Shown here: piece by piece, positions 5,317 to 36,105 of the stretch
Position numbering within the stretch: position 1 is the stretch's first letter
How the letters are laid out: each line of letters starts with the position of its first letter
Origin: Acidobacteriota bacterium
GTDB taxonomy: Bacteria > Acidobacteriota > Blastocatellia > Chloracidobacteriales > JADJPF01
Assembly: GCA_016213785.1 (NCBI GenBank)
Contig: JACQZQ010000063.1
Coordinates: 1-64,000 of the forward strand
Direction: 5' to 3'
DNA: 64,000 bases
Position numbers and translations under genes: made by a program
The notes under the pieces: generated by a model
The model's input: only the letters and a program-made list of their open reading frames with translations
The model's database searches: none
Told to the model about the DNA's origin: nothing

Positions 5317-8031
5317 TTAAGGTACTACTGTAATTGTGCATGTCCATTCAGGCCGACCTGACACTGTAATTGTCGCTGTTCCTACTTCCAAAGTAGCATC
5401 CATAAAAATGTCTTCCCCTGCTTTTGCTAACATACTTAAAGTTTGACTACCCTGTGTGAATACATAAGTGAGTTCTAATCCACTGCGATTGCGAATAATT
5501 ATAGTTTTTTCCCCTGCTTTTACTCTCAATTCATCAGACTCAAACCCATATCCATTTGAATAAAGAGGAAGATGCTTCCTCACTCTGAGATTGACTACCA
5601 TTTCATCACTTGAACTAAGCTGACCATCTGTAGCTGAAAATTTCAGTCTATAAACTCCAGCTAACTCAAAGACTACAAAAGTAGTTAAAGAATTAGGGTC
5701 ACTAAAACTAACATTTGAAGGGCCTTCAACCTTACTCCAAGTAAAACTAAGGTTAGACCCTACAGGAAATCCATCATCACTAGCTGTTGCACTTAAAGCT
5801 ATCACCTCAGGTAATAAAACATCTATATCCGCTCCTGCTGAAACCACAGGTGCTTGATTAGCACCAGCATTAACAATAACTATCACATCATCGCTAGATG
5901 ATAATGCGCTATCACTTGCTGTAAGTCTCAAAGTGTAAGTTCCTGCAACTAAAAATGATGCTTGTGTGATTGCTCCATTAGCATTAGTAAATGTAACTGC
6001 TCCAGGGCCTTCAACCCTACTCCAGGTAAGTGTTAATTGACTTGGAGGATTTGGGTTACCATCATCTGACACTTGTCCTTGCAAAGTTACTGAGTTAGGT
6101 AAATTAATAGTTTGATCCTGACCTGCATTTACTTGGGGAGCTTGGTTATTAACTTGTACTGGATTTACTGTGATTGTTAGATCATCTGTACCTGTTAATA
6201 TTGAATCTGTTGCACTTAACCTTAATACATAAACTCCTGCTTGGCTAAATGTTGCACTTGTTGTAGCTGTGTTTGCGCTAGAAAAACTTACTGTTCCACT
6301 TCCACTTACTTTGCTCCAAGATAGAGTAAGTTGGCTGGGGGGATTAGGTAGACCATCATCTGTCACTGTTGCAGTTAAATTAGCAACACTTGGTAAAGTT
6401 ATTGTTTGGTCTTGACCTGCTGAAACCACAGGCGCTTGATTTTGTGGTGGTTGCTGATTAACTGTAATTGTAACTGTGTCTGAAGCACTTAATTGACTAT
6501 CACTAGCCTCAAGTTTTAGAACATAATTACCAGCTGCACTAAAAGTCGCTGTTGTTGTAAGAGCATTAGCGTTACTAAACGTTACTGTTGCTCCTGATGG
6601 AGATGATACTTTACTCCAAGTTACTGTTACTTGCCCTGGAGGGTTAGGTAGACCATCGTCTGTTACAGTTGCTGCTAAATTTACTTTATTGGTTGGTAAA
6701 GTAATGCTTTGGTCAAGACCTGCATTTACACTAGGAGTTTGATTTATTCCATCTGTCCTAATTATATCTACTGTAGAAAGTCCTGAATTTCCAAATATAT
6801 CTGTTGCTGTTACTGTGATTGTATTATTGCCATTAGCAATAGGTATTGTGGCTGTATAATTGCTAGCAGTAATATTAGCAGTAACATTATTAACTTTAAC
6901 CTGTGTAACTACACTATCATCGCTAAAACTTCCTGTTACTATTATAGTTGCTGTATTTATAGTTTGATTAGGTGTAGGGCTAGAAATACTAACTTGAGGA
7001 GAAAGACTATCTTGAACAAAACCCTTTAATAGACTATTTGCATTTAAGTTTGCTCTATCACAAATAAGTAAGCCTGTTAATTTACTGTTAGAGTTAAGGT
7101 TTACTGTTCCTAGAGGTGCTTTTATTGCTCCATAAACCTCTGTATTTGAGTTAAGGGTTACTCCTCCATTAGATATGTTCAAAGACAAAGATACTGGACT
7201 TGAGGCATTGCCTACTTTTACATTACTACTTAAATTTACTGTATTTTGTATATTTAAGGTAACAGAACCCTTTACTTGTATCTCAGTGCTAGAATTAAGA
7301 TTTAGACCTTGTAAATTATATGTTGTGCTTTGGTTATCTACACCTAATATAAAACCAGAATTACTATTAGAAGTAATTTGTCCATAACTACCTGGAGGGA
7401 CAGCTAATAACCCATAACTGGAGTTAAGGGTTAAATTCCTAATAGTAGAAAAATCTCCAGGAGACTGATTTTTAGTTAAAGTAACATCTCTATTACCTTG
7501 AGGTGGAGCAACATTACCAAGATTGTTGATTACTATAGGATCTGTTTTTGTGATTATGTGATTAAGAGTAGTATTGCTATTAAGATTGATACTATAACCT
7601 GTAGGGTTTGAACTTCCTGTGCCTGCTATTGTTCCTCTATATGTACTATTACCACCTGCATTAATATTGATGTTAGGTGTTCCTGCAACATAGATATTTC
7701 CTGTTACAACCGTATTTGAATTAATACTAAAGGATTCTCCTTCTAATACTCTTATGGCCCCTTCAACTCTATTACCATTAAGATTAGGCGAATGTCTTGT
7801 TATTAAAACATCGGATGGAAATTGTAAGCTAGGACTAACACTAGTATTACTCTTAGAAACTGACTTATTTAGATTTTTGTTGTCATCTATTTTGTGCCCT
7901 GCTAAAGCTAAAACTTTAACATCTAGCAAATTTGTTATTAACAACAATGCTAACAAACACCTATTCCAAGCATTAAAGCGGTTCTTACTAACAGTCTTGT
8001 TTTGCTTAAAGTTGTCTTTTCTTTGATTCAT
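5317..8031 (-). CDS. Secreted PKD/Ig-repeat surface protein
   Basis: A 904-residue exported protein. A basic N-terminus and a hydrophobic segment around residues 25-45 look like a signal peptide. Residues ~60-340 are Asn/Ser-rich with recurrent LNSNT motifs, probably a beta-solenoid or polymer-forming fold. Residues ~346-430 resemble a bacterial Ig-like domain. Four PKD-like repeats follow, starting near 430, 531, 629 and 724; each begins NQ(A/T)P-V-AG-D and ends in a DTVTITVN-like strand. The last ~85 residues form a separate beta domain, possibly cupredoxin-like but without an obvious copper site. No catalytic motif was seen. It is immediately upstream of the RHS gene in the same orientation, so a joint role in surface display or adhesion is inferred. 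Confidence 0.85.
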   Translation of the reverse strand: MNQRKDNFKQNKTVSKNRFNAWNRCLLALLLITNLLDVKVLALAGHKIDDNKNLNKSVSKSNTSVSPSLQFPSDVLITRHSPNLNGNRVEGAIRVLEGESFSINSNTVVTGNIYVAGTPNININAGGNSTYRGTIAGTGSSNPTGYSINLNSNTTLNHIITKTDPIVINNLGNVAPPQGNRDVTLTKNQSPGDFSTIRNLTLNSSYGLLAVPPGSYGQITSNSNSGFILGVDNQSTTYNLQGLNLNSSTEIQVKGSVTLNIQNTVNLSSNVKVGNASSPVSLSLNISNGGVTLNSNTEVYGAIKAPLGTVNLNSNSKLTGLLICDRANLNANSLLKGFVQDSLSPQVSISSPTPNQTINTATIIVTGSFSDDSVVTQVKVNNVTANITASNYTATIPIANGNNTITVTATDIFGNSGLSTVDIIRTDGINQTPSVNAGLDQSITLPTNKVNLAATVTDDGLPNPPGQVTVTWSKVSSPSGATVTFSNANALTTTATFSAAGNYVLKLEASDSQLSASDTVTITVNQQPPQNQAPVVSAGQDQTITLPSVANLTATVTDDGLPNPPSQLTLSWSKVSGSGTVSFSSANTATTSATFSQAGVYVLRLSATDSILTGTDDLTITVNPVQVNNQAPQVNAGQDQTINLPNSVTLQGQVSDDGNPNPPSQLTLTWSRVEGPGAVTFTNANGAITQASFLVAGTYTLRLTASDSALSSSDDVIVIVNAGANQAPVVSAGADIDVLLPEVIALSATASDDGFPVGSNLSFTWSKVEGPSNVSFSDPNSLTTFVVFELAGVYRLKFSATDGQLSSSDEMVVNLRVRKHLPLYSNGYGFESDELRVKAGEKTIIIRNRSGLELTYVFTQGSQTLSMLAKAGEDIFMDATLEVGTATITVSGRPEWTCTITVVP

Positions 8032-13531: not shown

Positions 13532-15613
13532 ATGAAAACTCAAATCTTTCAAAAAATCTTTGCTATTATGTTATTTTTTGCTTTTACAGCTAGCTCTATG
13601 CTAATTGCTAGGGCTGATGAAGGGATGTGGATTTTTGGTAATCCCCCGCTTAAACAATTAAAAGAAAAATATAATTTTTCTCCTGATCAAGCTTGGCTTG
13701 ACCATGCAAGACTTGCAGCAGTGCGCTTTCCTAGTGGCTCAGGCTCTTTTGTTTCTGCTAATGGGCTGGTATTAACTAATCATCATATTGTGAGATCAAC
13801 ACTTGCTAAACTTTCCTCATCTGAGCGAAATCTCTTAAAAACAGGTTTTTATGCCTCAAACTTTAATGATGAGCTAAAATGTCCAGATGTAGAATTAAAT
13901 GTCTTAGTGCACCTAGAAAATATTACAGATAGACTTCAAGCCGCAACCCAAGGAAAGGATGCTAAAGCCGCTGAAGAACAGCGTAAAGTAGAAATTGCTA
14001 AGATAGAAAAAGAGTCTTTAGAAAAAACTGGGCTTAAATCTACAGTAGTCTCTTTTTATGAAGGTGGCGAATATTGGCTTTATCGTTATAAAAAATATAC
14101 TGATATAAGAATGGTTTTTGCGCCTGAAGCCCAAGCAGCCGAATTTGGCGGTGATTATGATAATTTTACCTATCCTCGTTATGCACTAGATTTTGCCCTT
14201 GTTAGAGCTTATGAAAATGATAAACCTGCAAAAGTAGAGCATTACTTTAAATGGAGCACTAAAGGAGCAGAAGAAAATGAGCTAATTTTTGTAATTGGTA
14301 ATCCAGGCTCTACAGATCGCTTACGTACAATAAGTCAAATTGAATACCAAAGAGATGTATCTAACCCTACTGCATTAAAGAGCTTAACCCGCCAAAGAGA
14401 TCTCTTAGTTAAGTATTCTGCTTTAGGTGCAGAACAAGAGCGTCGTGCATCAGATACAATTTCAGGTCTTAATAACACTCTTAAACGCTTAAATGGGCAA
14501 CAAGAAGGCTTGCTTACAGCAAAATTAATGCAACAAAAAGTACAAGAAGAAGATGATTTACGCCAAAAAGTAGCAGCAAATTCTGAACTCCAAAAAGCTT
14601 ATGGTGGGGCTTGGAATGAAATGAATCAAGCCTACTCTAATTTTGTTAGTGTAAGTAAACGAGTCTCTTATTCTAGCCTTTCATCTTCGCAACTAGCTAG
14701 ACTAGCCTTAAGTATTACTCAATATGTTATTGAAACTAAAAAACCTAATGGAGAGCGTTTACCTGCTTATAGGGACTCTAATCTTGAGTCACTTAGATTT
14801 CAGCTTCTATCCCCTGCTCCTATTTATACAGATCTGGAAGAGGTGTTACTAGCTGATAGACTACAAGAAATATTAGAAGAGCTTGGATATGCTGATCCTT
14901 TTGTTAAAGCCACCTTAAATGGCCGTTCATCTAAAGAAGCAGCTAAAGAATTTATTTCTGGAACTAAATTAGCTGATGTAAATTTCCGTAAAGCTTTATT
15001 AGAAGGCGATCTAGCAAATCTAGAAAAGAGCGCAGATCCTCTTGTTCAAATAGCATTAAAAATAGATCCTATAATTCGAGAACTAGATAAATTTTCACGA
15101 GAAAATTTTGATGCTTTAAGAGTCTCAGCAGGTGAAAAAGTAGCTAAAGCCCGTTTTGCTGTCTATGGTCGTTCAATTGCACCTGATGCTAACTTTACCC
15201 TACGTTTTAGCTATGGACAAGTAAAAGGCTATGAAGTAGGAACAACTCTAGTTCCTTATAAAACAACCTATGCAGGTCTTTATGATCGTGCATCTAGCTT
15301 TGATAATAAGTTTCCTTTTGAACTCTCACCTAAACTAGCAGCCAATAAATCAGCCGTTGACCAAAATGTTCCAATGAACTTTGTTTATACCGCCGACACA
15401 ATTGGAGGAAATTCTGGAAGCCCTGTAATTAATCGTCAAGGTGAAATTGTAGGAGTAAACTTTGATAGTAATGCTCATCGTTTTGTTTCACGCTATGTTT
15501 ATACAGAAGAGCGTGGTAGAGCAATGGCAGTTCATAGCGCTGGAATGCTAGAAGCATTACGTAAAATTTATAATGCTGGCGGCTTGGCTGATGAATTAGA
15601 AGGTAGAAAATAA
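13532..15613 (+). CDS. S46-family serine dipeptidyl-peptidase
   Basis: Start placed at the ATG at 13532 (AGGTG upstream) rather than the in-frame ATG at 13508, giving 693 residues. The N-terminus is a clear signal peptide, so the enzyme acts in the periplasm or outside. Family S46 (DPP7/DPP11) removes dipeptides from peptide N-termini. The catalytic triad is visible: His in TNHHIV (84/85), Asp220 in the segment after FGGDYDNFTYPRY, and Ser628 in GGNSGSPV. The usual NHHCG motif is NHHIV here. A helical middle domain (~250-550) matches the family layout. Substrate preference cannot be read from sequence alone. A strong terminator follows at once. Confidence 0.92.
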   Translation: MKTQIFQKIFAIMLFFAFTASSMLIARADEGMWIFGNPPLKQLKEKYNFSPDQAWLDHARLAAVRFPSGSGSFVSANGLVLTNHHIVRSTLAKLSSSERNLLKTGFYASNFNDELKCPDVELNVLVHLENITDRLQAATQGKDAKAAEEQRKVEIAKIEKESLEKTGLKSTVVSFYEGGEYWLYRYKKYTDIRMVFAPEAQAAEFGGDYDNFTYPRYALDFALVRAYENDKPAKVEHYFKWSTKGAEENELIFVIGNPGSTDRLRTISQIEYQRDVSNPTALKSLTRQRDLLVKYSALGAEQERRASDTISGLNNTLKRLNGQQEGLLTAKLMQQKVQEEDDLRQKVAANSELQKAYGGAWNEMNQAYSNFVSVSKRVSYSSLSSSQLARLALSITQYVIETKKPNGERLPAYRDSNLESLRFQLLSPAPIYTDLEEVLLADRLQEILEELGYADPFVKATLNGRSSKEAAKEFISGTKLADVNFRKALLEGDLANLEKSADPLVQIALKIDPIIRELDKFSRENFDALRVSAGEKVAKARFAVYGRSIAPDANFTLRFSYGQVKGYEVGTTLVPYKTTYAGLYDRASSFDNKFPFELSPKLAANKSAVDQNVPMNFVYTADTIGGNSGSPVINRQGEIVGVNFDSNAHRFVSRYVYTEERGRAMAVHSAGMLEALRKIYNAGGLADELEGRK

Positions 15614-15620
15614 ACTAGCA

Positions 15621-15655
15621 AAAATGGGCTAGTTACTATGCTAGCCCATTTTTTT
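15621..15655 (+). terminator. Rho-independent terminator of the S46 gene
   Basis: A perfect 12-bp stem, AAAATGGGCTAG with CTAGCCCATTTT, loop TTACTATG, followed by a T run. It begins 8 bp after the peptidase stop codon. This terminator is duplicated near 16957 (see the direct repeat). Confidence 0.9.
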
Positions 15656-15687
15656 ACAAATGTTTAGACATAACCATTTTACCAAAA
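15622..15687 (+). repeat. 66-bp direct repeat, copy 1
   Basis: The terminator plus the following ACAAATGTTTAGACATAACC segment and ACCAAAA recurs at 16957-17022 with a single mismatch (G to A in the second stem arm). The copies are 1335 bp apart and bracket the RelE remnant, the Uma2 gene and the attC-like sites. Confidence 0.92.
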
Positions 15688-15736
15688 GAAATATCCATCA
15701 ATAATCTTTTCTATAAAAATTTACTCTATCTACTAG

Positions 15737-16208
15737 TTCGACGGCTTACGGTATATTACTTATCATAATAAAAAGTTATTCATCAATTTCGTTAGCGTCA
15801 TCCTTTTTATCATGGTAGGCATCACGAAAATGCAAAACATTTACAGTATCATCACCTACAAGAAAAAGAACTCTGTATCGCTGAAAAATAATCTGCCTAA
15901 TCTCAATGTTAAATTCTTCACTTTCAGGTGCTAAAGGATGACGATTAGGAAAAGTTTCAAGTTTAGCTATTGCTTCCATTAATGTGTTAAACCATTTTTA
16001 GCTTGCCTACTCTTGTTAGCTTCATACTTTATCCTTACATTAAATTTAATCTGAATTTGATGTTATCAGCAAAATTATTTTTTGCAAAACCTTTGTTTTT
16101 AGTTAGACTTATCTAAATCTAAGTAAAAATTAAAAGTATCAAAAACAGCCATTTTGAGAAAATTTTGCTTCTATTAGCCGTCGAACAAACGTTGCAGCGG
16201 ACTTGGGG
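15737..16208 (+). mobile_element. Integron-type gene cassette 1 (decayed RelE)
   Basis: The segment starts at G^TTCGACGGCT (G at 15736) and ends with AGCCGTCGAAC (16176-16186) plus an attC-like tail to the next G^TT at 16208. The first 11 bases are a perfect reverse complement of the R'' element at the other end. That is expected if the two ends were joined as one attC palindrome in a circular cassette. Its only recognisable gene, a RelE/ParE toxin remnant, lies antisense. No integrase is present in the window. Confidence 0.6.
15776..16062 (-). pseudogene. RelE/ParE-family toxin remnant, frameshifted
   Basis: The 67 residues from 15979 match the C-terminal two-thirds of a RelE/ParE toxin: EAIAKLETFPNRHPLA, then EIRQIIFQRYRVLFLV and VNVLHFR. 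Upstream, in another frame, IKFNVRIKYEANKSRQAK reads as the missing N-terminal part. It joins at a run of five A near 15997 where one added base would restore the frame. No start codon remains at the expected place near 16062 and no antitoxin gene is adjacent. It is best read as an inactivated toxin carried by a cassette. If the frameshift were a sequencing error, a short intact toxin could still exist. Confidence 0.65.
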
Positions 16209-16213
16209 TTCGA
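16176..16213 (+). repeat. attC-like site A (short)
   Basis: R''-like TCGAAC (16181-16186), then AAACGTTGCAGCGGAC (L''-like), then R'-like GTTCGA (16208-16213), the exact complement of TCGAAC. It lacks the long central hairpin seen in site B. It lies between the RelE remnant and the Uma2 gene. Confidence 0.55.
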
Positions 16214-16287
16214 TTGCTGAAAGAGGTGCGCACTAAAGGAGGTGAAAAATAAAGGAGAAAGAGGTATATTAAAGAAGGAGGTATAAA

Positions 16288-16836
16288 ATGATGAGTATAA
16301 GAATTGAAGAAGTAAAAGACGAACTTTATAGGGTTAAAGAAAAAGCAGAAATAGTAAAAGGAGAAATAGTAAAAATGTCACCAACAGGAGGAAAACCTGG
16401 TCGTGCAGGAGGGAAGATTTATACTAGCTTGGATAGATATGAACAAGAAACAGGTAGAGGATATGCTTTTCCAGATAATGTTGGTTTTATAGTTAATTTA
16501 CCTAATAGAGATAGTTTTAGCCCAGACGCAGCATTTTATACTGGTACTTCTATCACAGAAGATTTTTTAGAAGGAGCACCTATTTTTGCTGTTGAAGTAA
16601 GAAGCAAAATTGATTATGGTGATAAAGCTGATCAAAAAATATTAGAAAAAATCTTAGACTACTTTGCTGCTGGTACTTTAGTTGTTTGGGATGTTGATGT
16701 CATCAAATCTGAAACTATCAAAGTTTATCGTTCTACTAATCCCCTTAATCCTACTATTTATCATCGTGGCGAGTTGGCTGAAGCAGAACCCGCTTTACCT
16801 GGTTGGTCTTTTTCTCTTGATTCTCTCTTTCGATAA
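16288..16836 (+). CDS. Uma2-family (DUF820) PD-(D/E)XK nuclease-like protein
   Basis: 182 residues, start ATG at 16288 preceded by an excellent AAGGAGG. The Uma2 pattern is present: GGKPGRAGGKI, then NRDSFSPDAAFY with the metal-binding Asp80, FAVEVRSK with Glu103, then a conserved Lys/Gln helix and LVVWDVD. Uma2 proteins are predicted restriction-like endonucleases, often multicopy in cyanobacteria and related phyla; their cellular role is unsettled. The gene occupies its own small cassette between attC-like sites A and B in the same orientation, so horizontal gain is likely. Family assignment is firm; activity is not shown. Confidence 0.88.
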   Translation: MMSIRIEEVKDELYRVKEKAEIVKGEIVKMSPTGGKPGRAGGKIYTSLDRYEQETGRGYAFPDNVGFIVNLPNRDSFSPDAAFYTGTSITEDFLEGAPIFAVEVRSKIDYGDKADQKILEKILDYFAAGTLVVWDVDVIKSETIKVYRSTNPLNPTIYHRGELAEAEPALPGWSFSLDSLFR

Positions 16837-16847
16837 TCTAACAGTAG

Positions 16848-16933
16848 GCAACCAAACAAATGTTGCAGCAGACTCGGATTGTCGGCTCGCTAACGCTCGC
16901 CGAACTTTCCTCGCCACTGAACTTTTGGTTCGG
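16848..16933 (+). repeat. attC-like site B (full length)
   Basis: The site begins GCAACCAAAC (R''-like), continues with AAATGTTGCAGCAGAC (L''), a central hairpin around GGCTCGCTAACGCTCGCC, then CACTGAAC (L') and GGTTCGG (R'). GTTGCAG pairs with CTGAAC leaving one unpaired G, like the extra-helical base of integron attC sites. It directly follows the Uma2 stop codon, as expected for a cassette. R''/R' pairing has a mismatch. Confidence 0.6.
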
Positions 16934-16956
16934 TGCAATGATAATTTATTTGAACC

Positions 16957-17022
16957 AAATGGGCTAGTTACTATGCTAACCCATTTTTTTACAAATGTTT
17001 AGACATAACCATTTTACCAAAA
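16957..17022. repeat. 66-bp direct repeat, copy 2, with terminator
   Basis: A second copy of the S46 terminator segment, differing from copy 1 at one base in the second stem arm (CTAACCC instead of CTAGCCC). It now lies between the end of cassette 2 and the convergent stop codon of the secreted protein at 17034, and may act as terminator for either strand. Confidence 0.9.
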
Positions 17023-17033
17023 AAGTAACACTT

Positions 17034-17717
17034 TTAATCTACACATTTAAGTCGAACAAAACGAGTTCTTTCATTACAATAAAAAGATTTAATTCCACCA
17101 TACCCCCGACATGTAGCTATAGCATTATCACCCGCGACTTCACAAAAGGATCTGTTTTTTATATAAACATAGCGTGCAATTATCGGTTCTCCATTTATCA
17201 AATTCGGTATTAGATTACGATCAATAACCAATCCAGTTATTTGTGAAGATGTTGCTTGTTGAGAAGTAACACCATGTTTTTTTTCTACTGGCGCTTTTGT
17301 ACTAACTTCAACATAATCAATTACCATTGCGTAGCGATGAGAGCCATCTAAAAATATCCTGTCATCTATCTCTAGAAAAATAGAATTCCCCCCTTGTGGA
17401 TTTACTTCCCAAGCAGCAAATCCAAACGGACGATTATCTGCATCTATAGTAAACAAAGTAGCCACAAATGATTTAACCACTGTTCCATAAGTATTATTGT
17501 CATAATTTATATTAATCCCAACTCGTTCATCAGAAACAAGTTCAGCTTGAACAAGAGTAAGCGGCATATTTTGGGCATTATAGCAAGGTATTTGTATAGA
17601 CGTTGATTGTATTAAAGAGTTCTTTAATAGATTTGTGGTATTTGGTCTAATATTAGCGGAAGAAATATCAGCTAAGATAATAATCGCAAGACAAACTATA
17701 ATAAAAATCTTTTTCAT
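17034..17717 (-). CDS. Secreted protein of unknown function
   Basis: 227 residues. A classic signal peptide (MKKIFIIVCLAIIILADISSA) shows export. The mature part is mainly predicted beta strand, with one Cys near the N-terminus and a cluster of four Cys near the C-terminus (RSFCEVAGD, ATCRGYGG, FYCNERTR and the final KCVD) that could form disulfides. I recognise no domain. It is separated from the next genes by ~115 bp with no partner. Its stop lies 11 bp from the duplicated terminator. Confidence 0.7.
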   Translation of the reverse strand: MKKIFIIVCLAIIILADISSANIRPNTTNLLKNSLIQSTSIQIPCYNAQNMPLTLVQAELVSDERVGININYDNNTYGTVVKSFVATLFTIDADNRPFGFAAWEVNPQGGNSIFLEIDDRIFLDGSHRYAMVIDYVEVSTKAPVEKKHGVTSQQATSSQITGLVIDRNLIPNLINGEPIIARYVYIKNRSFCEVAGDNAIATCRGYGGIKSFYCNERTRFVRLKCVD

Positions 17718-25073: not shown

Positions 25074-25214
25074 ATGAAGATTATTTTGTGGGTTATGATT
25101 TTTGCTACCCTTTTAGTATCTTGTAAAATGCAAGAAATATCTCCTACTAATAACACTATAAACTTAGCTCAAAACCAAACAATAACTAATGAAAAAATTG
25201 ATCTAAAAGATATG
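25074..25214 (+). pseudogene. DUF3124 lipoprotein gene, 5' fragment
   Basis: Starts with a lipoprotein signal (MKIILWVMIFATLLVSC, lipobox LVSC), then reads QNQTITNEKIDLKDMV, which matches the region before VYVPVYSH in DUF3124 proteins. At the Val codon (GTT, 25215-25217) the frame enters the R'-like cassette end and runs on with unrelated residues to a stop at 25280. The rest of DUF3124 resumes at about 25962. The gene was therefore split by an insertion. Confidence 0.75.
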
Positions 25215-25970
25215 GTTCGGCGCAGTGAGTGTGGCGAATCTAGCATGGTAGAGGTTGATAATGAAAATACCAGTTTTTAATGGGCTTGAAAATTATAATG
25301 AGTATTCAGAAAGTGAAATGAAAGAACGAGCAAGTTCTTTCAGCCAAGAAATGAGAAAAAGGAGAACAGTGAGAGATTTTTCGGAAAGAGAAGTTGAATT
25401 AGAAATAATAGAAAAATGTATAGAAGCAGCAGCAAGTGCGCCAAGTGGAGCTAATCTTCAACCATGGCACTTTGTAGTTGTAAGAGATGCTGAAATAAAA
25501 AGACAAATACGAGTAGCCGCCGAAGAAGAAGAGCGAGAATTCTACAACAAGCGGGCAACTAAAGAATGGTTAGAGGCATTAAGTTTACTAGGTACAGATG
25601 AACACAAACCTTTTTTGGAGAAAGCTCCATATCTAATCGCAATTTTTGTGCAATCTTATGGAGTTACTGAGAACGGATCTAAAGTAAAGCACTACTACGC
25701 TCTTGAATCAGTTGGAATAGCAACAGGTATATTAATAACAGCTATTCATCATTGTGGTCTTGTCTGCTTAACTCATACTCCAAGTCCTATGGGATTTCTT
25801 AACAAGATCCTTGGCAGGCCAAATAATGAGCGACCTTTTTTACTCCTTGTAGTTGGTTATCCTGAAGTCGATTCTGTTGTTCCTAAAATAAGCAAGAAGT
25901 CTCTTCAGGACATCTGTACAATTTTATGAAATTTATCTAAAATCTGCGCCGAACAAACCTTGCAGCCGCG
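25215..25970 (+). mobile_element. Integron-type gene cassette carrying a deiodinase-like gene
   Basis: The left end GTTCGGCGCAG (25215-25225) and the right end CTGCGCCGAAC (25944-25954) are perfect 11-bp inverted repeats, the relation expected between the start of a cassette and its own R'' element. The right end continues AAACCTTGCAGCCG, like the L'' part of attC-like sites A and B. The second half (L', R') is missing and DUF3124 coding resumes, so the right junction has probably suffered a deletion. The single gene inside points in the usual cassette orientation. The exact right boundary is uncertain within ~25955-25975. Confidence 0.6.
25261..25929 (+). CDS. Iodotyrosine-deiodinase-like nitroreductase-fold flavoprotein
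   Basis: Start placed at the ATG at 25261 (GAGG 6 bp before it) rather than the TTG two codons upstream; 222 residues. It has the nitroreductase fold with FMN-binding [10 protein letters not shown] (~32-41) and [13 protein letters not shown] (~59-71). It resembles the IYD subfamily rather than ordinary nitroreductases: Glu91 and Tyr95 in EREFY and Lys116 in HKPFLE match the lid residues that bind the halotyrosine zwitterion, and [30 protein letters not shown] and VVGYP complete the pattern. IYD enzymes reductively dehalogenate halogenated tyrosines using FMN. The true bacterial substrate is unknown. The gene looks more GC-rich than its neighbours and lies inside a cassette, so transfer is likely. 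Confidence 0.82.
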
Positions 25971-26300
25971 ACTTTAAGTATAAGAAATACAGAGTTTACC
26001 AATACAATTATAATCAACTCTGTAAATTACTATGATTCTGATGGCAAACTTGTGCGTAATTATCTTAATCAACCTTTAGAAATAGCACCAATGGCATCAA
26101 AAGAATATGTTGTTGAAGAAGAAGATACAACTGGAGGAGTAGGAGCAAATTTTGTTGTAGAATGGTCAGCTAAAACTACTGTTACTGAACCTGTAGTTGA
26201 AGCAGTAATGATTACAGCTAGATCATCCCAAGGCATATCCTTTATAAGCACTGGGCGAGTTATAAAAAAATGGTCTAAAGAAAGCTCTAAGGACAATTAA
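25962..26300 (+). pseudogene. DUF3124 gene, 3' fragment
   Basis: From about 25962 the frame reads AAATLSIRNTEFTNTIII, NSVNYYDSDGKLVRNYL, then IAPMASKEYVVEEEDTTGGV, GANFVVEW and GISFISTGRVI. This is the body of a DUF3124 domain in the correct order up to the natural end. About 20 residues (the VPVYSHIYYG region) that should link it to the 5' fragment at 25214 are missing. An ATG at 26052 could start a short product without a signal peptide, which is unlikely to be functional. Confidence 0.75.
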
Positions 26301-35352: not shown

Positions 35353-35407
35353 GACAAAAAATTAAGACCTGCGTAGAAAATTTATAACAACCTATAATGC
35401 AAAGCTC

Positions 35408-35470
35408 AGTGGCGATGGAAATCGGCGAGTCTTGATTAGCCAACTGATGAGACGACAACCCAAGCCCACT
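35408..35470. other. Possible structured RNA between HAD and RNA ligase genes
   Basis: A GC-richer non-coding stretch that folds by eye into a junction. The outer stem is AGTGG (35408-35412) with CCACT (35466-35470). A hairpin CGAT-GGAA-ATCG with a GNRA-type loop follows, then a second hairpin GTCTT / GAGAC (35429-35453). It is either part of the HAD gene's 3' region or a separate small RNA. No known RNA family is matched. Confidence 0.3.
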
Positions 35471-35478
35471 ACAACCTT

Positions 35479-36105
35479 TTAGAGAATCTTTTCAATAATC
35501 TCATCAACACAATAAAACACTTCTGAAGGAGAATGCGTTAGGAGAGTGTCCATTCTAGTGTAACCCCAAGAAACAGCCCCAAAAGGAATGTTTTCAGCTT
35601 TAGCAGAGGTTAAATCCCTAATTTCATCACCAATGTAGATGGCTTTACTTGAATCAATCTTAGATTTTCTCAAAATATTTTTTAATTTAGAGCGTTTTCC
35701 AAACAAAGAAGTACCACATTGATGCTCAAACATAAGACCCATGTTATTAGGGTTTAATACCTTGCAAACATTGTCATAAGAATTACTAGTTATAAGACTT
35801 AATATAATTCCTCTGTTAGATAAAACCTGTAACATATTTTCCACACCTGCAAACAAGGAAATTTCTTCAATTTTTTCAGCCATTTTCCTTCTAAAACCAT
35901 TTGCTACAATAGGTACTTTCCACAGAGGTAAACCTAAATAATTCATCAATTGCATTGCATCATAGCCTCGCAAACTTTCTACTTCTTTCATATCCATTTT
36001 CTTGAACTTATATTCATCTGCTAGCTCATTCACTGTTTTTAGAAAAAAAGGAAAAGAATCTGCTAATGTACCATCAAAATCAAACACTACTAACTTATAT
36101 TTCAT
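35479..36105 (-). CDS. HAD-superfamily phosphatase
   Basis: 208 residues with the HAD motifs: DFDGTLADS (nucleophile Asp and acid/base Asp) at the N-terminus, Thr/Ser in LITSN, a Lys region around RSKLKNIL, and YIGDEIRDL near the end. An alpha-helical cap sits between motifs I and II, as in phosphoglycolate-phosphatase-like (HAD-2) enzymes. The substrate is not evident. It lies upstream of the RNA ligase in the same orientation, but that gene has its own promoter, so a functional link is only a possibility. Confidence 0.85.
   Translation of the reverse strand: MKYKLVVFDFDGTLADSFPFFLKTVNELADEYKFKKMDMKEVESLRGYDAMQLMNYLGLPLWKVPIVANGFRRKMAEKIEEISLFAGVENMLQVLSNRGIILSLITSNSYDNVCKVLNPNNMGLMFEHQCGTSLFGKRSKLKNILRKSKIDSSKAIYIGDEIRDLTSAKAENIPFGAVSWGYTRMDTLLTHSPSEVFYCVDEIIEKIL

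Follow-up and report, generated by a model that had tools for sequence, protein, structure and literature searches.

CALINs (clusters of attC sites lacking an integron integrase), in which attC-bearing cassettes lie far from intI, are common in Xanthomonas, where they occur at several loci (PMC12444791). Off-target insertion by IntI is one proposed origin of CALINs and genomic rearrangement is a further published source (PMC8618304). Insertion into genomes is also served by attG sites, which papers citing Loot et al. (2024) describe as divergent from attI and attC (PMC12901181, PMC12444791), and crossover separates the G of the GTT in R' from the first T (PMC12901181). Fused cassettes arise by loss of the first attC, such a truncated attC being no substrate for excision (PMC4670013). 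The Acidobacteriota are among the integron-bearing phyla listed (PMC8618304) and an attC model for Acidobacteria was built previously (PMC8352920); in a limited literature collection, no report of integron gene cassettes in the Blastocatellia was found.

The stretch of DNA analysed here (the window) comprises bases 1-64000 of contig C44 of a 6.4-Mb genome (132 contigs) belonging to the Blastocatellia (Acidobacteriota), with the same-genus genome G001 used for comparison of locus synteny. It possesses two neighbouring cassettes, carrying a RelE remnant and a Uma2 gene respectively, both of which have the same attC family as an integron of about 100 cassettes elsewhere in the genome. They are off-array cassettes in an integron-bearing genome, not relics in an integron-free one, and clearly illustrate, in nature, a type of event that is already known; they do not represent a new system. 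Their source is very probably the sedentary chromosomal integron of the host itself, through IntI-mediated off-array insertion at an attG-type GTT followed by attC decay. In the initial annotation they were termed integrase-less integron-type cassettes. The second part of this term is supported by a covariance model built from attC sites of this genome, while the first holds for the window's contig, which has no match to TIGR02249, but not for the genome, which has a full IntI on contig C39. An Rfam search of the window returned no family reaching its gathering score.

The host genome contains a sedentary chromosomal integron, as evidenced by its ~98 array attC sites and full IntI. The initial annotation had conceded that its reading would fail if attC structures did not rise above background or if the motifs had no link to gene boundaries; the L'' motif AACAAANGTTGCAGCNGACT, however, has 113 genomic copies (with three mismatches or fewer) compared to none in the reversed control, and the array, present on at least 14 contigs (~69 kb summed), has one cassette between successive attC sites with a median cassette of 690 bp. 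A covariance model (R1) was built from 82 aligned array attC sites with a mean column identity of 81%. This gave 107 matches in the genome, ~98 of them on array contigs. The full core consensus RYYYAAC/GTTRRRY is absent from the window cassettes, which keep GTT/AAC with a core of GTTCGG(T/C). The array core consensus is GCCGAAC/GTTCGGC or GCATAAC/GTTATGC, and the cores of window and array are both one position off GTTRRRY; as the array itself departs likewise, this is considered a lineage variant. The 35 array genes of ~95 aa or more matched nine Pfam families with one member each, several being of unknown function. Many array contigs (L068, L069, L071, L076, L079, L080) have at their ends a near-identical cassette start (TTATGCCCCCTAG...AAAAGTAG), probably belonging to a cassette with several copies at which the assembly broke.

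The search for an IntI-type integrase, also proposed initially, identified a full-length IntI of 319 aa on C39 (TIGR02249, 469.1 bits versus a cut-off of 265). The predicted protein possesses a segment of 20 residues which we take to be part of the integron-specific added domain. Its gene (C39:11839-12798, equivalent to L074:11839-12798) lies ~9 kb from the array edge near C39:3007, with other genes and insertion elements in between. Reading frames judged by eye in this interval include a group-II-intron-type reverse transcriptase with an HNH frame (L074:4406-5964) and an IS1-like transposase (6439-7193 on L074). G001 also has an intI (L122:3984-4943), which stands alone, with 81% identical DNA limited to the gene and ~20 bp and with unrelated flanks. 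Isolated attC sites of visibly different sequence type were observed in G001 at L205:492-586 (-) and L206:5376-5469 (+), scoring 68.0 and 39.4 bits.

Cassette 2 (720 bp, 16208-16928, + strand) starts with GTTCGATTGC at 16208 and ends in a full attC. It encodes, co-directionally, a Uma2-family protein of 182 aa (16288-16836, + strand; PF05685, E-value 4e-25, 88.7 bits). The attC (16845-16940, + strand) extends from ~16848 to the R' GTT at 16928 and possesses paired R''/R' and L''/L' as well as an extra-helical G in L''. It scores 84.6 bits with R1 (E-value 2.1e-26 in the 64-kb window) and is 88% identical to the array attC sites. It had been claimed that the two ends of this cassette correspond with two mismatches, in an attC-like site with an unpaired G, and this is confirmed: GCAACCAAAC at 16848-16857 differs at two positions from the expected GCAATCGAAC. 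These two mismatches are within the first ten bases, with end complementarity after mutation being 8/12 overall. As a single strand the site folds at -15.1 kcal/mol (z -1.39), array sites folding more strongly (z -5.2, -3.9). Single-strand folding was consequently rejected as a stand-alone attC test, being strong for array sites but weak for that of the window. The 28 bp past the last crossover point (16929-16956, + strand) start with TTCGGTGCAATG and resemble a cassette start. The right side of this crossover reads TTCGGTGC. More array cassettes start with TTCGG than with any other sequence, and only 5 of the 2486 GTT triplets in the window have the continuation GTTCGG. These bases are more likely to be the start of a lost third cassette than a host right half-site.

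Cassette 1 (472 bp, 15736-16207, + strand) begins with GTTCGACGGCT at the GTT of position 15736 and ends in a truncated attC, one base ahead of the GTT at 16208. Antisense within it is the C-terminal remnant, 67 aa in length, of a ParE/RelE-type toxin (15776-15979, - strand). Its match to Pfam ParE_toxin (16 bits, E-value 0.019) is under the 23-bit cut-off and covers only profile positions 34-84, and no antitoxin was seen. The start of this cassette was reported as the exact reverse complement of its R'' element, and letters and positions were verified, with GTTCGACGGCT at 15736-15746 pairing at 11 of 11 bases with AGCCGTCGAAC at 16176-16186. Its attC (16174-16220, + strand; R1 27.1 bits, E-value 1.7e-6 in the 64-kb window) is internally deleted, with ~48 nt absent between GGACT and (GA)ACTTGGGG. 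The attC is thus complete in cassette 2 but not in cassette 1. At the deletion joint, R''-L'' is fused to the last bases before R', GGACT abutting the bases which normally come after GAACTT, and GGACT and GAACT have ACT in common there. The fold of this site as a single strand is no better than that of shuffled sequences (z -0.09). The central stem-loop has been lost through a short deletion, owing to which cassettes 1 and 2 look fused.

The complementarity of cassette ends had been explained by both ends once forming one attC in a circular cassette. This reasoning is correct for the array, where the starts of 73 cassettes are on average complementary to their own R'' at 10.96 of 12 positions, in comparison to 7.8 (maximum 8.4) where ends were shuffled between cassettes. 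It had also been regarded as more specific evidence than repeat similarity, and in this respect the claim holds in part. A first-order Markov simulation gives ~1.0 11-nt GTT...AAC pair per strand per 64-kb window, with three being observed, and in view of this chance rate complementary ends were not accepted as sufficient proof. An 11-nt end complement is strong evidence only together with attC sequence and the same rule in the array. When 1.3 Mb of the genome was sampled, three sites with the L'' motif had a matching cassette start (nine or more of 11 positions) and the reversed control had none; the three are cassette 1, the C75 cassette and the cassette at 25215 in the window.

Other single-cassette loci, which the initial annotation had suggested looking for, are present in the genome. 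Besides the window pair there are at least seven off-array attC loci, two of these within the window, with R1 identifying sites on contigs C75, C46, C122, C130, C120 and C21 and at 35386-35490 of the window. Contig C75 has, within L078:4900-7000, a single DUF6348 cassette of 850 bp, located between ...AACAGTGAG and TTAAACATCG. It sits at a clean G/TT in a cmr2 remnant adjoining a Cas_APE2256 gene, and both of its flanks are non-att. With the flanks joined and the G of the crossover point counted, the cmr2 frame is open for ~50 codons further, this continuation having no Pfam match. On C21, two decayed attC-like sites were observed in opposite orientation ~600 bp apart (L204:6205-6284, + strand and 6803-6868, - strand).

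Within the window, a nitroreductase cassette (25215-25970, + strand; gene 25255-25929) was missed by R1 and surfaced through the end-complement test. It has perfect 11-nt ends, starting with GTTCGGCGCAG and having its R'' CTGCGCCGAAC at 25944-25954, with its attC cut after L''. This cassette is inside a lipoprotein/DUF3124 gene (25074-26300), the leader of which begins at 25074 and the remainder of which runs to 26300. Past the R''-L'' part follows the DUF3124 body (profile positions 26-123), with positions 1-25 lost. It appears that the cassette entered the gene and that a later deletion took the right half of the attC along with ~25 codons. The other locus is a HAD-hydrolase cassette (35386-36105, - strand), whose gene (35479-36105, - strand; PF13419, E-value 1.3e-31) is followed by a decayed attC (35386-35490, - strand; R1 35.5 bits, E-value 2.1e-9). 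Its cassette start is not recognisable. Three off-array loci are therefore found in ~20 kb of the window, although this clustering is a post hoc observation.

Regarding the insertion site of the window pair, the left boundary is an exact cassette start beside non-attC sequence. The AT-rich left flank (15688-15736, + strand) ends in the G of the G/TT crossover and is a putative attG-type left half, having neither attC-like sequence nor a similar copy among the retrieved loci. Of the attG-type pattern, a G/TT with non-att host sequence on both sides, the left half is seen at the pair, while on the right the sequence resembles a cassette start; C75 is clean on both sides. Integrase and cassette donor are present in the one genome. 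The pair is also flanked by a 66-bp direct repeat with 98% identity. Copy 1 (15622-15687) consists of the terminator hairpin of an S46-peptidase gene and the following bases, while copy 2 (16957-17022) has one mismatch which breaks the hairpin. Copy 1 is taken as the original, as the hairpin is conserved behind the orthologous gene in G001 (93.5% over 31 bp). A repeated terminator family was considered and rejected, there being just two copies genome-wide. Since no comparable flanking duplication is present at the other off-array sites examined, the repeat is treated as a separate event, which may have been a rearrangement such as template switching or duplication followed by deletion. The S46-peptidase gene of G001 and its terminator are followed downstream by a kinase gene, a different Uma2 gene on the opposite strand being all that lies between. 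The same interval in the window has the two cassettes, the second terminator copy and four further genes. As both flanking genes are almost adjacent in G001, extra DNA entered the window locus. The 48-bp left flank has no match in G001, which keeps both flanking genes without cassettes, and the DUF3124 piece has no match in 19 relatives. An exact empty site was not found in relatives searched via the S46 peptidase, the downstream genes and the DUF3124 piece, G001 giving partial synteny only.

In the proposed mechanism, IntI encoded elsewhere in the chromosome would recombine the folded bottom strand of an attC with a non-classical GTT of the attG type, the target being the AT-rich space behind the S46-peptidase gene. 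The second cassette may have been imported together with the first or added later at its end. A short deletion would then remove the stem-loop of the intervening attC, fixing the RelE-remnant and Uma2 cassettes as a fused unit, with the outer attC of cassette 2 drifting by point mutations. The cassettes on C75 and at 25215 support this model, as they are comparable insertions in the same genome. The published crossover position (PMC12901181) also fits the exact left boundary in the window and both C75 boundaries. Against it are the right boundary, which is no clean host half-site, the lack of an exact empty site in the relatives searched, the four further genes between the cassettes and the kinase, and the 66-bp flanking repeat, which is a feature neither of attC x attG recombination nor of the other off-array cassettes. 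Furthermore, no relatives of the Uma2, RelE or HAD cassette genes were found in the assembled array.

Some of these points could be accommodated if the pair were the remainder of a longer array, or of the end of an array, moved or deleted by rearrangement, with the 66-bp repeat and the third-cassette start as scars. The cassette-like right end, the terminator duplication, which shows that some rearrangement occurred, the IS elements and group II intron at the C39 array edge, and the published role of rearrangement as a CALIN source (PMC8618304) are all compatible with this. Nevertheless, the flanking genes match those in G001, the left boundary coincides precisely with a cassette start, and the single off-array cassettes within genes (C75 and 25215) are too precise for rearranged arrays, making such a remnant unlikely. 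The repeat could instead be no separate accident but a trace left by insertion itself or by its replicative resolution, in a lineage whose IntI would often insert across the chromosome and whose off-array cassettes would cluster (three loci, ~20 kb) and become fixed by attC deletion. This more far-reaching proposal is regarded as very doubtful.

The assembled resident array contains no relatives of the two cassette genes, which might alternatively point to import from another bacterium with flanking DNA, as a transposon or plasmid fragment, with no involvement of the resident IntI. The attC sites are, however, of the resident family (88% identity), whereas those of the same-genus G001 visibly differ; there are no mobile-element genes in 15613-17034, and G+C is similar to that of the array and window. 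Import is accordingly held to be extremely improbable. A chance inverted repeat with sequence similarity has a basis in the 11-nt GTT...AAC end complements, of which chance alone gives roughly one on each strand in 64 kb, but is refuted by the model scores, given an attC E-value of 2e-26 and a genome with 113 copies that form regular arrays; its probability is negligible. IntI-mediated insertion of cassettes from the host's own integron thus remains the preferred explanation of the locus.

Array, off-array insertion and decay are visible in one genome, whose lineage is distant from Vibrio and from clinical integrons. The C75 cassette illustrates a clean insertion in a gene remnant, that at 25215 an insertion in a gene and a subsequent deletion, and the site at 16174 an attC loss locking cassettes in place. 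The idea that integrons supply new genes to the rest of the chromosome becomes directly testable here by strain comparison within the genus.

Like Vibrio-type superintegrons, the host integron has one IntI, ~98 near-identical attC sites and ~690-bp cassettes with mostly unknown-function genes. It differs in that ~9 kb separate intI from the array edge that was identified and in that intI is apparently not beside attI; in G001 intI is between other genes. As in CALINs, the window cassettes bear attC sites far from intI; however, with one complete and one internally deleted attC, the two-attC threshold is reached only by counting the damaged site. With attG insertions, as these are described in papers citing Loot et al. 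(2024), the window pair shares a left G/TT boundary beside sequence unlike attI or attC and the presence of many loci per genome. It differs from that description in being deduced from sequence, in its host of uncultured-type Blastocatellia, in its flanking 66-bp duplication and in its cassette-like right end. Finally, it resembles fused cassettes such as blaGES-1/aacA4 (PMC4670013), in which partial loss of the intervening attC yields one mobile unit, but differs in that the pair is outside an array and its first gene is a reversed remnant.
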